A stretch of DNA of 32,380 nt. Source: Chloroflexota bacterium. GTDB taxonomy: Bacteria; Chloroflexota; Dehalococcoidia; Lucifugimonadales; UBA3495. The stretch's first letter is position 1. Every line of letters begins with the position of its first letter. A program made the translations under genes and the position numbers. Below the pieces are notes generated by a model. It saw only the letters and a list, made by a program, of their open reading frames with translations. It was not told the DNA's origin and ran no database searches. The stretch is taken from contig JAPPGG010000063.1 in the NCBI GenBank assembly GCA_028875055.1, forward strand, positions 1-32,380, written 5' to 3'. This document shows positions 5,661 through 32,380 of this stretch, in pieces.

Positions 5661-5695
5661 TCGAATGCCCCAGCGCACCTGGCTGGGGCATTCGA
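5661..5695 (+). terminator. Strong 14-bp hairpin after the BFN gene
   Basis: A perfect 14-bp inverted repeat (5661-5674 with 5682-5695) encloses a 7-base loop GCACCTG. The tail GTTAGAGG lacks a T-tract, so it may terminate inefficiently or stabilise the 3' end. Confidence 0.7.
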
Positions 5696-28336: not shown

Positions 28337-29575
28337 ATGGAACTGGCAGTGTTGTTTGGCGGGATCATCCTGGGCCTGGCAGTCGGAGGTCTGGTGGGCT
28401 GGGCCTGCCGCGCCGGAAAGGCTAGCAAGGAGTCTGCGGACCGCCAGGCGGAAATCGCCCGTCTGCAGGGGCAACTGGAACAGGCGGCTACCACCCAGCA
28501 ACTGCTGGAATCGGCCAGGACCCAGTTCAGCGAGGCGGCCAGGCTGACCGCCGCCGAGGCCCTTCAAGGGAACAACGACCAATTCCTGAAGCTGGCTAAC
28601 GAGAATCTTGGAAAGACCCTGGAGTCGGCCAGCAGGGAATTGCAGCAGCGACACCAGCAGTTCCAGGAACTGGTAAAGCCCCTGGCGGAAAACTACGGCA
28701 AGCTGAACCCCCAGATCGAGTCCCTGGTGCAGCAAAGCCAGTCCCTGGCTGCGGAAACGGGCAAGCTCTCTTCCGCATTGACCGACAACCGGCAGGCAGG
28801 CCAGTGGGGCGAGGTCCAGTTGCGCCGGGTGGTTGACCTGGCGGGAATGAGCGATTACTGCGATTTCTCGGAGCAGGAATCCCTGGGATCTTCCCAAGGA
28901 CGCCCGGACCTGGTGGTAAGGCTTCCCGAGCGGAGGGCAATAGTGGTTGACGCCAAGGCTTCCACGCTGGCCTATATGGAAGCTCAACAGACGGAAGATA
29001 CAGCCGCTGCCGACGAAGCCTGGACCCGCCACGCCCAGGCCCTGCGCCGCCAGGTGGACGATCTTGGGGGCAAGAGATATGGAGCCTCGGTGGATGGGTC
29101 GCTGGATTTCGTGGTTATGTTCGTGCCGGGGGATCAGTTTCTGGCGGCGGCCCTAAGCGCCAATCCGGGGCTTATTGAATACGCCATGGCCAAGAGGGTG
29201 GCTATCACAACTCCCGCTTCCCTTATATCCCTGCTCTGGGCGGTGGCCGGCGGCTGGCAGCAGTTCCGGCTGGCCGAGGACGCGGCCCGTATCAAGGAGG
29301 TGGGTGAGGAGATGTACAAGCGCCTGATCACCTTCATGAACTACTATGCCCGAGTGGGCAAGGGCCTTGAATCGGCCGTCGGGGCCTACAACCAGTCTGT
29401 GGGTTCCTTTGACCAGCGTCTCGCGCCCCAGGGCCGACGCTTTGCGGACCTGGTGGTCGGGAATGACGCCGAACTGCCCGCCATTGACACCCTCGACGCG
29501 TCGCCCAGGGTGTCGGCCAACGTCGGCGCCGACGACACCGATGGCGGCATCGGCAGCATGGCGGCGGACAATTAG
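28337..29575 (+). CDS. rmuC: DNA recombination protein RmuC
   Basis: RmuC limits inversion at short inverted repeats and is predicted to be a membrane-tethered nuclease. The 412-residue protein has an N-terminal membrane helix (about 4-24), a long coiled coil (about 30-140), and the RmuC domain with AGQWGEVQLRRVVDLAGM (about 153-170), RPDLVVRLP and the PD-(D/E)XK-like VVDAKAS (about 204-209). The C-terminal tail is acidic and Gly-rich. The last base of its stop codon abuts the 8-bp repeat that marks the right-hand island. Confidence 0.95.
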   Translation: MELAVLFGGIILGLAVGGLVGWACRAGKASKESADRQAEIARLQGQLEQAATTQQLLESARTQFSEAARLTAAEALQGNNDQFLKLANENLGKTLESASRELQQRHQQFQELVKPLAENYGKLNPQIESLVQQSQSLAAETGKLSSALTDNRQAGQWGEVQLRRVVDLAGMSDYCDFSEQESLGSSQGRPDLVVRLPERRAIVVDAKASTLAYMEAQQTEDTAAADEAWTRHAQALRRQVDDLGGKRYGASVDGSLDFVVMFVPGDQFLAAALSANPGLIEYAMAKRVAITTPASLISLLWAVAGGWQQFRLAEDAARIKEVGEEMYKRLITFMNYYARVGKGLESAVGAYNQSVGSFDQRLAPQGRRFADLVVGNDAELPAIDTLDASPRVSANVGADDTDGGIGSMAADN

Positions 29576-29651
29576 GTAGTGTCTCAGTTTGAACCTTATG
29601 AGATTCCCCGATAATTCCCTCTGGTTTACAGTCTATTTACACCCCCATTGT

Positions 29652-29764
29652 CGACCTGAAAGAATCACACGCACACCGAGCGGACGAAGGCTGGTCTAAA
29701 AACCGCAGACGGTTAATTTAGGGCTTATCGCCGCTCGGTGTGCAGATTCCATTGTAGCAGGTCG
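29652..29764. other. Large nested inverted-repeat structure
   Basis: Four nested pairings share one axis: CGACCTG (29652-29658 with 29758-29764), GAATC (29662-29666 with 29745-29749), a perfect 13-bp GCACACCGAGCGG (29671-29683 with 29731-29743), and an inner AACCG-CAGA-CGGTT hairpin. It lies 77 bases after rmuC. It could be an RNA, an element end, or a miniature transposable element. Confidence 0.65.
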
Positions 29765-29766
29765 GG

Positions 29767-29796
29767 TTGACGCAACGGGCAAGGCGATAGTATTCT
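29767..29796 (+). promoter_or_regulatory. Promoter for the structured RNA and OB-fold gene
   Basis: TTGACG (29767-29772), 18-base spacer, TATTCT (29791-29796). The predicted transcript start is about 29803, the first base of the structured segment. Confidence 0.55.
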
Positions 29797-29802
29797 CAAT
29801 AT

Positions 29803-29923
29803 GACTCACCACAAGTCAACATCCCACTACATGTAGCCATATAGAGCCACACGTGAACCGAGTTAGGGCAGCTCATGCTCCCTTGTACGGTTCACGACGG
29901 GATGATCGCTTGTGGTGAGTTGT
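29803..29923 (+). ncRNA. Candidate structured leader RNA or small RNA
   Basis: Three nested pairings: ACTCACCACAAG (29804-29815 with 29909-29920), extended by wobble pairs to 29801-29923; CATCCC (29820-29825 with 29899-29904); and CGTGAACCG (29852-29860 with 29888-29896), which caps an inner AGGG/CCCT and AGC/GCU stem. A palindromic CTACATGTAG branch lies between. The outer stem closes at the predicted +1, and no T-tract follows, so it is probably the 5' leader of the gene at 29949. I match it to no known RNA family. Confidence 0.55.
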
Positions 29924-29948
29924 CAGCCCTACACCGCAAGGGAGCCCA

Positions 29949-30356
29949 ATGAAAGGCTGCCTCTCAGTTCTTGGATGGTGCGCCGCAGGATTCATAATTA
30001 TCGTTGTAATTCTCGCATTGTTATTTGGCGAAGAGGAAGCTCCAGACCAGATAAATAAGCCTCCACTGGATGTGACCACAAAAGAGATATATCGAGCCTA
30101 CCAGAGTAACGAAGCGAGGGCTAACGTCACATATAAGAATCGACGACTGAATCTTGAATTCAAGATACACGAAGTGGAAGACTATTATGTGATAGAGAAT
30201 TTAGGGCCTGGTGGAGACTGGGGTTCTGAGGTCACAGCAGAACTGACATTCCCTGTCGAGGATTTAATCGAGTTCAATACGGGAGAAATCCACACTCGTG
30301 AATGTACCTTAAATGGATTCCAGATGGATTCGTGGATAGAGTTCGATTGCAAATAG
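29949..30356 (+). CDS. Membrane-anchored tRNA_anti-like (OB-fold) protein
   Basis: A 135-residue protein with one N-terminal membrane helix (about 11-27) and an extracytoplasmic domain that fits the tRNA_anti-like OB-fold family: VTTKEIYRAYQSNEARANVTY (43-62) followed by KNRRLNLEFKI, and a late Cys pair (Cys119, Cys134) in the HTRECTLNG and IEFDCK segments. The family is common in lipoproteins and small exported proteins and its role is unknown. GGGAG precedes the ATG by 5 bases. It sits directly after the structured leader. Confidence 0.65.
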   Translation: MKGCLSVLGWCAAGFIIIVVILALLFGEEEAPDQINKPPLDVTTKEIYRAYQSNEARANVTYKNRRLNLEFKIHEVEDYYVIENLGPGGDWGSEVTAELTFPVEDLIEFNTGEIHTRECTLNGFQMDSWIEFDCK

Positions 30357-30365
30357 GAGTGGGTT

Positions 30366-30524
30366 ATGCCAGTCGGACCAGACGGACAAATACGGCCCGA
30401 AGACGACATCGAGAACGCCGTCCTAGTGGCTAAGATAGCGACTGGAGAGGCTAAAGAGGAATATCAGGAGCAGGTAGCTGCTTCGGCTCCCAAGAGGCCT
30501 AGAAAGCCAAAGAAGAATAAATAG
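30366..30524 (+). CDS. 52-residue basic-tailed small protein
   Basis: Starts 9 bases after the preceding stop codon, with TAGGAG upstream of the ATG. The product has an acidic middle (EDDIENAVL) and a Lys/Arg/Pro-rich end (PKRPRKPKKNK). It fits a small nucleic-acid-binding protein, but no family is recognised. The tight spacing suggests translation with the OB-fold gene. Confidence 0.5.
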   Translation: MPVGPDGQIRPEDDIENAVLVAKIATGEAKEEYQEQVAASAPKRPRKPKKNK

Positions 30525-30557
30525 CCCTTCGCTGGGGGCGGCTCTCGAGCCGTCTTG

Positions 30558-30633
30558 TGGAGCCCTCGGGGAGACTCGAACTCCCATCTTTTGGTGCGGT
30601 AAGCCAATGCTTTATCCATTAAGCTACGAGGGC
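30558..30633 (-). tRNA. tRNA-Gly (anticodon ACC) or tRNA-like gene
   Basis: On the minus strand a complete 76-base cloverleaf can be drawn: acceptor GCCCTCG/CGAGGGC, D-stem GCTT/AAGC with a GG loop, anticodon stem TTGGC/ACCAA, T-stem GGGAG/CTCCC with loop TTCGAGT, discriminator U and an encoded CCA. The 7-base anticodon loop TTACCGC gives ACC, a Gly anticodon. C35, C36, U73 and the first two acceptor pairs match glycine identity. The last pair of the anticodon stem is a C-A mismatch, and the D-arm looks more like tRNA-Arg, so function and identity are uncertain. Confidence 0.75.
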
Positions 30634-30640
30634 TTCAATT

Positions 30641-30671
30641 GAGTCCCAGGTATTGTGAGTACCTGGGGCTC
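30641..30671. terminator. 12-bp hairpin next to the tRNA
   Basis: GAGTCCCAGGTA (30641-30652) pairs with 30660-30671 with one G-T pair and a 7-base loop, followed on the plus strand by TTCTT. It lies between the 5' end of the tRNA and the transposase promoter and may isolate the two. Confidence 0.55.
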
Positions 30672-30699
30672 TTCTTATGTGTATCATGTTTCCGGGTGA

Positions 30700-30728
30700 T
30701 TTACAAGGAGTTTTCACAGATATAAAAT
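30700..30728 (+). promoter_or_regulatory. Promoter of the transposase gene, leaderless
   Basis: TTTACA (30700-30705), 17-base spacer, TAAAAT (30723-30728). The predicted +1 falls on the ATG at 30735, and no ribosome site is present. Confidence 0.65.
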
Positions 30729-30734
30729 TAGAAC

Positions 30735-31592
30735 ATGCACAAGCTACCATTAGAACAGCGAGTACAGATACTCAATATGCTGGTCGAGGGATCGTCCATG
30801 AGGTCTATCTCTCGTATTACTGGAGTATCCATCAACACCGTGACGAAGCTTCTGGTGGATGCTGGAGAGGCCTGTGCTCGGTATTCAGACAGAAGGATTA
30901 AAGGTATAGAATCTAAGAGAATTCAGTGCGACGAGATATGGTCATTCTGCTATGCGAAGGAAGACCGAAAGGTCTCGCCGTCGGCTCCGGCTGACCACGG
31001 TAACGTGTGGACGTGGACTGCAATCGATGCCGATACAAAGATGATACTCTCGTGGATGGTGAGCCCAGACCGTGGATCCCAGTACGCAACTGAATTTATG
31101 AATGACCTGCGCTCACGGGTGGTGGGGAAGCCTCAGGTGTCGACAGATGGATGGAACTCCTACATTACCGGAGTCGAGGAAGCCTTCGGTAGTGAGGTTC
31201 GATACGGTCAGCTAATCAAGGTCATTCCTGACCGAGGCATCCCAGAAGGAGAGCCTAGATACGTTTCTCCCGACCAGGAGGCCTCTCGGCGGGTGGCCGT
31301 ATCAGGCGATCCTTATCTGGACGACATCAGCACGTCCTATGTGGAGCGGCAGAACCTGACGATGAGGATGTCGATGAAACGGTTCGCTCGCCTGTCCAAT
31401 GGGTTCAGCAAGAAGCTGGAGAACCATGTCCACATGCTATCCCTGTATTTCACTTGGTATAACTTCTGTCGAGCGCACTCGTCGCTAGGGAAGCCGTATA
31501 AGGGGTTAGGAGTGACTCCAGCGATGGCCGCTGGACTAACGGAGAGGCCGTACACACTGGAAGGCATGATAAGATTAATAGACAATAGATAA
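30735..31592 (+). CDS. IS1-family-like transposase
   Basis: A 285-residue single-frame protein: an N-terminal helix-turn-helix (about 7-45, with SMRSISRITGVSINTVTKLL) and a DDE domain with Asp66 (CDEIWSF), Asp138 (STDGWNSY) and Glu204 (SYVERQNLT), then the conserved RRF-like, FSKKLENH and WYNFCRAHSSLG segments. In classical IS1 the two parts are separate frames joined by frameshifting; here they are fused. No terminal repeats flank it closely, and the next gene follows 12 bases later, so it looks like part of a larger element rather than a simple IS. Confidence 0.85.
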   Translation: MHKLPLEQRVQILNMLVEGSSMRSISRITGVSINTVTKLLVDAGEACARYSDRRIKGIESKRIQCDEIWSFCYAKEDRKVSPSAPADHGNVWTWTAIDADTKMILSWMVSPDRGSQYATEFMNDLRSRVVGKPQVSTDGWNSYITGVEEAFGSEVRYGQLIKVIPDRGIPEGEPRYVSPDQEASRRVAVSGDPYLDDISTSYVERQNLTMRMSMKRFARLSNGFSKKLENHVHMLSLYFTWYNFCRAHSSLGKPYKGLGVTPAMAAGLTERPYTLEGMIRLIDNR

Positions 31593-31604
31593 AGGAGGGT
31601 GGAT

Positions 31605-31883
31605 ATGATGGGTTCATTAGAAGGATATGATCATAAGGCTATGTTGGAATTTCTCAGGGACATTGAGAGGCAGACCAATAGAGCAGCGGGGATGGAACTC
31701 CCCTTTATTGAAGGTATTACATACGAGGAAGCGAAGGAATTGTTGGAGACGGCACAAGCTTTAGAGTATATCTGGTTCGATTCCTCTGAACCTGATCTTG
31801 TGGGTGAGATAACTTCTAAGGGCAAGTATCGAATACGTGCACTCGAAGAAGAAACTCGTCAGGAAGACATTAATAGTCTGTAA
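31605..31883 (+). CDS. Small acidic protein of unknown function
   Basis: 92 residues, Glu/Asp-rich, with a predicted helical middle (ITYEEAKELLETAQALEYIW) and end. GGAGGG 5 bases before ATG 31605 supports the start, which is 12 bases after the transposase stop. I see no known domain; the pattern could suit a winged-helix fold (KGKYRIRALEEE near the end). Likely co-transcribed with the transposase gene. Confidence 0.6.
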   Translation: MMGSLEGYDHKAMLEFLRDIERQTNRAAGMELPFIEGITYEEAKELLETAQALEYIWFDSSEPDLVGEITSKGKYRIRALEEETRQEDINSL

Positions 31884-31902
31884 GCTTACATAGTGAGAGA
31901 AT

Positions 31903-31932
31903 GACTCGGTAGCTGTCGAGGGCTACCGAGTC
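31903..31932 (+). terminator. 11-bp perfect hairpin
   Basis: GACTCGGTAGC (31903-31913) pairs perfectly with 31922-31932 around an 8-base loop. No T-tract follows; the ribosome site of the next small frame begins a few bases later, so it may control that gene. Confidence 0.55.
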
Positions 31933-31946
31933 GAGTGAGGTGAACC

Positions 31947-32117
31947 GTGGAAGAACGACCTCGGATGAATTTTGTACGAGCGGGTACCCCGTTGGAAATA
32001 CCCGATGGAACGAATCGGGTTTCCACACCTATCATCACGAAGGCCTTTCTTGAGAACCACACGGGTTGGATTGGAAGAGTGTATTTCTTAGCTGGCCGGC
32101 CTATATTTGCCATTTAG
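31947..32117 (+). CDS. Possible 56-residue protein
   Basis: GTG start 15 bases after a hairpin, with GAGTGAGG upstream; an in-frame ATG at 31965 gives 50 residues. The product is mixed in charge with a hydrophobic end (WIGRVYFLAGRPIFAI). It has no recognised family. Its end overlaps the end of the opposite-strand gene by 4 bases. Confidence 0.4.
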   Translation: MEERPRMNFVRAGTPLEIPDGTNRVSTPIITKAFLENHTGWIGRVYFLAGRPIFAI

Positions 32118-32317
32118 AATGTGAAGGATGAATTGGCCATTCCCTCCAGGCACTCAGGACAAGTAACTTCACTGGAATATCGGTGATCGACCACATCTCT
32201 GGTTCCACGGAAGTAATTCTTACCACACATTGTTAAGCCTTTCTCAATAGGTGCCGCCAGACCGAATGTAGGATTCGCTCTGGGTCTCATTGCTGAAAGG
32301 CAAATGTAACCATTCAT
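32114..32317 (-). CDS. Small Cys-containing protein, possible zinc ribbon
   Basis: 67 residues with CGKNYFRGTRDVVDHRYS followed by TCPECLEGM. Three Cys and a His are placed like a short zinc-binding knuckle. AGGTG lies upstream of the ATG on the minus strand. It resembles small phage or plasmid proteins in style, but no family is recognised. Confidence 0.5.
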   Translation of the reverse strand: MNGYICLSAMRPRANPTFGLAAPIEKGLTMCGKNYFRGTRDVVDHRYSSEVTCPECLEGMANSSFTF

Positions 32318-32380
32318 TTCTACACACCTAGTACTGAGTCACAGTTGTAGTGTCAGGGTATAGCCTGCGGAGTTTGGTTC

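Follow-up and report, generated by a model that had tools for sequence, protein, structure and literature searches.

What kind of molecule is encoded where a set of nested inverted repeats begins exactly at a predicted transcription start, just ahead of a membrane-protein gene, in a Chloroflexota bacterium? The window, as we call the whole 32,380-nt stretch analysed, is one contig of a 3.75-Mb genome, and a sequence-only reading of it had described, at 29803-29923, three perfect pairings (12, 6 and 9 bp) nested one inside the other. All three are indeed present there: ACTCACCACAAG at 29804-29815 with 29909-29920, CATCCC at 29820-29825 with GGGATG at 29899-29904, and CGTGAACCG at 29852-29860 with CGGTTCACG at 29888-29896. 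As a 121-nt RNA the region folds at -60.1 kcal/mol against -31.4 +/- 3.5 in dinucleotide shuffles (z = -8.3), a value equalled by none of 200 shuffles, and the minus strand folds about equally well at this copy. The element is single-copy in its genome. Structure called from one sequence is usually noise; here it led to a previously uncatalogued RNA family, present in at least five bacterial genomes, that catalogues have missed because its fold is kept but its sequence scarcely is. The impression that the element fits no known RNA family was borne out by Rfam (release 15), which matched neither the window element at E up to 10 nor the other four members at E up to 1.

Searches by DNA similarity returned no homologues from 59 relatives, plasmids, phages and E. 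coli genomes, and a covariance model of the single sequence (R1) matched only its own locus among 393 genomes. The homologues were reached through the downstream OB-fold gene, whose protein has weak relatives in G026 and G277, and then through covariance models built on several members. An inverted-repeat scan of the G026 and G277 loci found in each a 14-bp perfect repeat spanning 117 nt, placed directly before the OB gene in G026 and, in G277, ahead of a lipoprotein gene that the OB gene follows. Structure-guided alignment of these two with the window copy gave compensated pairs throughout, and a model of the three (R2), built without G319, matched G319 among the 393 genomes with an E value of 1.7e-8. 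A four-member model (R3), built without G564, matched G564 weakly (E 0.29, or 0.0076 in a smaller search); its membership was confirmed by its own architecture and its own 11-nt complement to the Shine-Dalgarno (SD) region at the equivalent place. A further R2 match, in G295 (E 0.6), proved to be a tandem-repeat artefact before a dnaJ-like gene, and matches of an exact-pattern scan in viral and genome contigs were due to chance, their outer stem being missing. With the window, the family thus numbers five genomes (G277 and G319 being near relatives) from searches of 393 genomes of the class and 250 of the order, a lower bound given that a limited number of candidates was scored per genome.

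The members share an architecture of 114-120 nt comprising P1, P1b, a P2/P3 junction and an apical P4 hairpin. In the window the element covers 119 nt on the plus strand (29803-29921; E 8.8e-11 with a covariance model that includes the window copy itself). P1 extends the 12-bp pairing to 14 bp (29803-29816 with 29908-29921), measures 10-14 bp across the members with variable sequence, and changes on both sides in 12 of its 14 pairs; P1b, the 6-bp pairing, does so in five of six. The P2 hairpin GTAGCC-ATATAG-AGCCAC (29833-29850) carries two A/C mismatches in the window copy and is intact in G026, G277 and G319. P3, the 9-bp pairing, contains invariant GA/UC and C-G pairs and is the helix with the highest sequence conservation (GA[A/G]C / G[C/T]TC), and P4 (AGGGcAGC-TCAT-GCTCCCT, 29865-29883) appears both in the window fold and in the covariation count. 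To force the aligner into register, segments of unequal length were padded with filler letters in the seed alignments; for the covariation count, the real sequences were aligned to the model, without filler. In these five sequences, all different, pairing is kept in 95.9% of base-pair cells. Both partners have changed in 30 of the 42 pairs (15.3 +/- 2.5 after shuffling), and pairing falls to 33-45% when partner columns are shifted by 1-3. This five-member alignment was fitted to the structure and leans towards it, and an unguided MAFFT/RNAalifold alignment was therefore also run. It recovered P1, P3 and P4 and missed P1b, with a covariation term near zero that we attribute to misalignment of divergent sequences. 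Covariation among homologues was the check that the sequence-only reading had proposed for its structure, and in the four homologues the three stems do vary with compensation.

The RNA had also been predicted to start exactly at +1. The window scan places a -35 box TTGACG at 29767-29772 and, after an 18-nt spacer, a -10 box TATTCT at 29791-29796 on the plus strand, so that the predicted +1 falls on 29803, the first base of P1. A single sequence cannot prove such a start; the same promoter spacing in four homologues lends support to a +1 at the first paired base. With that base taken as +1, TA stands at -12/-11 in all five members and at no other offset does this hold, and a -10 hexamer beginning with TA (TATTCT, TAACGA, TATAGT, TAGAGT and TAAGGC) ends 6 nt before P1 in every one. 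The -35 boxes read TTGACG, TAGACG (G026), TTCCCT, TTGCTC and TTGACG (G564). No terminator-like site, that is a GC hairpin with a T run as an intrinsic terminator or attenuator would have, occurs at 29803-29948. Just upstream of the leader lies a second strong hairpin, absent from the sequence-only reading (29651-29771, z = -6.9), with a 13-bp GCACACCGAGCGG stem and an outer 11-bp stem; it overlaps the -35 box and is not recognised by the leader covariance model.

The clue to function comes from the apex of the fold. Positions 29877-29885 (GCTCCCTTG; nt 75-83 of the element) comprise the 3' strand of P4 and two unpaired bases and are a perfect 9-nt complement, hereafter the anti-SD, of the SD region CAAGGGAGC at 29937-29945. 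Perfect complements of the member's own SD occur in the homologues as well (11, 9, 8 and 11 nt in G026, G277, G319 and G564), although the sequences differ (anti-SD/SD: GCTCCTTGCTG/CAGCAAGGAGC, CCCTCCTGC/GCAGGAGGG, CCCTCCTG/CAGGAGGG and CCTCCTCACGG/CCGTGAGGAGG). In every member the anti-SD falls within element nt 74-87, and 16-22 nt separate the element from the SD. Shuffle P values are 0.003, 0.0005, 0.0075, 0.055 and 0.0005 for the window, G026, G277, G319 and G564 (a separate run for the window gave 0.004). Against the SDs of other members the longest complement is only 5-7 nt, except between the similar pair G277 and G319 (8-9 nt). Among 245 other SD-led ORFs of the same loci, a control set that includes spurious ORFs and possibly the members themselves, complements of at least 9 nt occur in 4.5% and of at least 11 nt in 0.8%. 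SD pairing and P4 are mutually exclusive, and the computed energies of the two states in the five members (-65.1/-63.2, -66.9/-70.3, -76.5/-75.8, -78.0/-71.5 and -67.2/-73.6 kcal/mol, without pseudoknot penalty) lie within about 7 kcal/mol of each other, making the SD-blocked and P4-formed states nearly balanced alternatives before any such penalty. A 4-bp tail hairpin that would also mask the SD (P5; in the window CCCT 29927-29930 with AGGG 29939-29942) has an equivalent in all five members; its chance probability is 0.27-0.44 for each copy, and we therefore dropped it as a proven hairpin and regard it as no more than suggestive. The element thus has the marks of a cis-acting translational leader, namely a conserved RNA structure between promoter and start codon on the gene's strand and, with the 245-ORF control in hand, an alternative pairing, likewise conserved, with the mRNA's own SD.

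We consider it quite likely, from the computed fold, covariation, promoter position and cis-specific SD complementarity, that the element is a cis-acting 5' leader RNA of a new family that gates translation of the downstream gene. As each member holds a stretch that would block its own SD, the leader is probably an on/off switch for translation. The idea of a new leader or small RNA is upheld in its leader form: since the apical strand of every one of the five members complements the SD of its own transcript, we prefer this form to a free small RNA. Transcription from the first base of P1 would give the mRNA a 5' end consisting of a closed multi-helix domain, with the anti-SD strand held in the P4 hairpin at its tip. 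In a putative open state P4 would be formed, and the ribosome could reach the SD that lies 16-22 nt past the domain; in the shut state the anti-SD would quit P4 and pair over 8-11 bp with the SD, turning translation off through a helix that forms a long-range pseudoknot in the P3 loop. P1, P1b and P3 would stay paired in both states as a rod of about 28 bp, bridged by a spacer of 15-21 nt. By general helix and chain dimensions such a rod measures roughly 75-80 A, which a spacer of this length can span, and the anti-SD reaching the SD is geometrically feasible. Anti-SD bases in the P3/P4 internal loop could act as a toehold for exchange. Co-transcriptional folding may close P2-P4 first, leaving the SD open on emergence, and relaxation or a signal might then shift the anti-SD onto it. 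Most likely, we are dealing with a pseudoknot switch before accessory membrane-protein and lipoprotein genes, the regulation itself being what we infer; exchange would take place in cells between these states, either of which may dominate there, with a ligand, a protein or temperature as a conceivable driver.

The genes behind the leaders fit a common theme of accessory, exported proteins. In the window the leader precedes a 135-aa membrane-anchored protein (29949-30356, plus strand), as first described, whose OB-fold (tRNA_anti-like) label is sustained by homology. The protein itself (P0001) has no Pfam match, and a single-sequence AlphaFold model was unusably poor as a route to the fold (pLDDT 47); it shares 24-32% identity with its homologues in G277 and G026 (29% and 31%), both of which match PF12869 above cut-off. 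An OB-fold membrane protein is likewise the first gene behind the leader in G026, while proline/threonine-rich lipoproteins take that place in G277 and G319, the latter with RCC1 repeats. In G277 the order is leader, lipoprotein, OB lipoprotein and a pentapeptide/FRG gene. This last gene (L100:11349-12578), with pentapeptide repeats and an FRG domain, strongly matches the PADLOC phage-defence candidate PDC-S15 (E 3e-68). The downstream ORF in G564 has only 41 codons and is perhaps a broken gene.

The element had been taken to belong to an island, which the neighbourhood supports. Homology with the sister genomes G002 and G003 runs through rmuC and stops at its stop codon (29575), past which the sister species carry a gene that by eye looks glyoxalase-like. 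In the window's genome this gene sits at the start of another contig (C29), preceded by a mobile repeat and GACAATTA, and the same 8-bp GACAATTA is thus found at both island junctions (29567-29574 and the start of C29, L026:1-70). The left end of the island, GGTAGTGTCTCAG (29575-29592, plus strand), follows directly after it, and GC drops there from about 63% to 45-52%. The island (29567-32380) holds cargo, a tRNA-like gene and, at 30735-31592, a transposase with an IS1-family DDE match; another multi-copy repeat cuts the island at about 32328. Two related IS1-family-like transposase loci (L083, L085) have ends GGTAGTGTC that resemble GGTAGTGTCTCAG. Together, the homology break, the GACAATTA repeat, the GC drop, the transposase and the GGTAGTGTC-like end place the element within an island, probably of transposon type. 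At the far junction lies one of about 25 genomic copies of a MITE-like repeat of ~150 bp (L026:1-53; L034-L041), with ends GGGTGTCCGTCAA...TTGACGGACACCC and 9-bp target duplications. The tRNA-like gene (30558-30633, minus strand) is called Gly with anticodon ACC, which is unusual for bacteria, and has a weak anticodon stem; it is perhaps a decayed island tRNA. Elsewhere in the window, at 5661-5695, the inverted repeat TCGAATGCCCCAGC pairs perfectly over 14 bp around a 7-nt loop.

Could the same features arise without switching? In a constitutive leader, the 5'-terminal P1 would guard the mRNA against decay that depends on the 5' end, and translation would be fixed at a low level by the SD complementarity. 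This would account for a P1 that begins at +1 in all five members and stays paired although its sequence varies, as expected of any protective stem, and nothing points to a trigger. We nevertheless think it unlikely, as protection alone requires neither P4 nor an anti-SD of 8-11 nt at a fixed place, nor the near-equal energies of two exclusive states. Far less probable is a stable trans-acting or antisense small RNA from this locus: a long closing stem, a promoter at its start and a C-rich apical anti-SD strand would suit one, as would the good folding of the minus strand, but no terminator follows the element, the anti-SD fits the SD of its own transcript rather than those of other members, and inspection of the member tails revealed no matching promoter position on the other strand. 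An RNA from the minus strand, hinted at by three minus-strand G-U pairs in the window's P2, was rejected since the homologues and the SD pairing settle the plus strand.

The island setting raises one more reading, to which we give marginally less credence still: a DNA element near a mobile-island end, acting as a folded single-strand site for recombination or replication or representing a small inverted-repeat transposon. In its favour, the element forms a strong inverted repeat on either strand, lies 228 bp in from the edge of an island that carries a transposase gene, and adjoins a second hairpin. Yet the element is single-copy, no target duplication was seen around the repeat, its position relative to promoter and start codon is conserved in five genomes, and SD complementarity would be superfluous for a DNA site. 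Integron attC sites have conserved core boxes, RYYYAAC and GTTRRRY, at their palindrome ends, whereas here the ends are the most variable part: those of the window, GACTCACC and GGTGAGTT, differ by inspection in every member. A role in the transposon machinery was likewise discarded, related transposase loci in other genomes being without such an element. A retron RNA finds no partner, as no reverse transcriptase is present among the scanned neighbour genes, either in the window or at the homologous loci. The sequence ...TGTACGGTTC pointed to domain V of a group II intron, a 34-nt hairpin with a catalytic AGC triad; this reading was rejected, the candidate having 39 nt and AAC instead, with no Intron_gpII match at E up to 10.

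The switching leader that we prefer has partial precedents. Translational riboswitches with SD-sequestering pseudoknots, such as the preQ1 classes, likewise have a structured 5' leader in which a pseudoknot takes up the SD; the present element is far larger and rod-like, starts at +1, keeps its anti-SD in an apical hairpin distant from the SD, and has neither a recognised conserved ligand pocket nor, as noted, a place in Rfam. Long-range pseudoknots and alternative pairing around the ribosome site control initiation in ribosomal-protein (S4 alpha operon) and plasmid-replication (IncI/IncB rep) leaders, which serve other genes with another architecture; no sequence or model similarity to our family was found. 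In fold-back inhibition of IS10 and IS50, an inverted repeat near a mobile-element end can hide the SD, with only read-through transcripts folding, whereas here the element's own promoter would yield the whole fold. The tisB-type toxin mRNA leader has a standby site and a local 5' pseudoknot (5-bp stem 2) that aids 30S binding (PMC7708055). It shares with our leaders a highly structured 5' end and a masked ribosome site, and its product is a small membrane protein (PMC7708055); in our family it is the SD itself that enters the proposed long-range helix, the products have 135-404 aa (the G564 ORF, 41 codons), and no antisense RNA was seen.

More speculatively, the family might be a riboswitch-like or protein-sensing translational switch, a new orphan class carried with mobile membrane-protein and lipoprotein genes and answering to a novel signal, though no ligand-like conserved loop is evident in the five members. 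Equally tentatively, such a class could be defined almost wholly by geometry: a rod of ~28 bp from +1, an apical SD-specific strand and a spacer just long enough. Because SD and anti-SD co-vary leader by leader, compensatory mutation offers a direct test of the proposed mechanism. If driven by a ligand, the leader would be a new orphan riboswitch candidate; if not, it would clearly exemplify control through RNA geometry that moves together with accessory genes for surface proteins.
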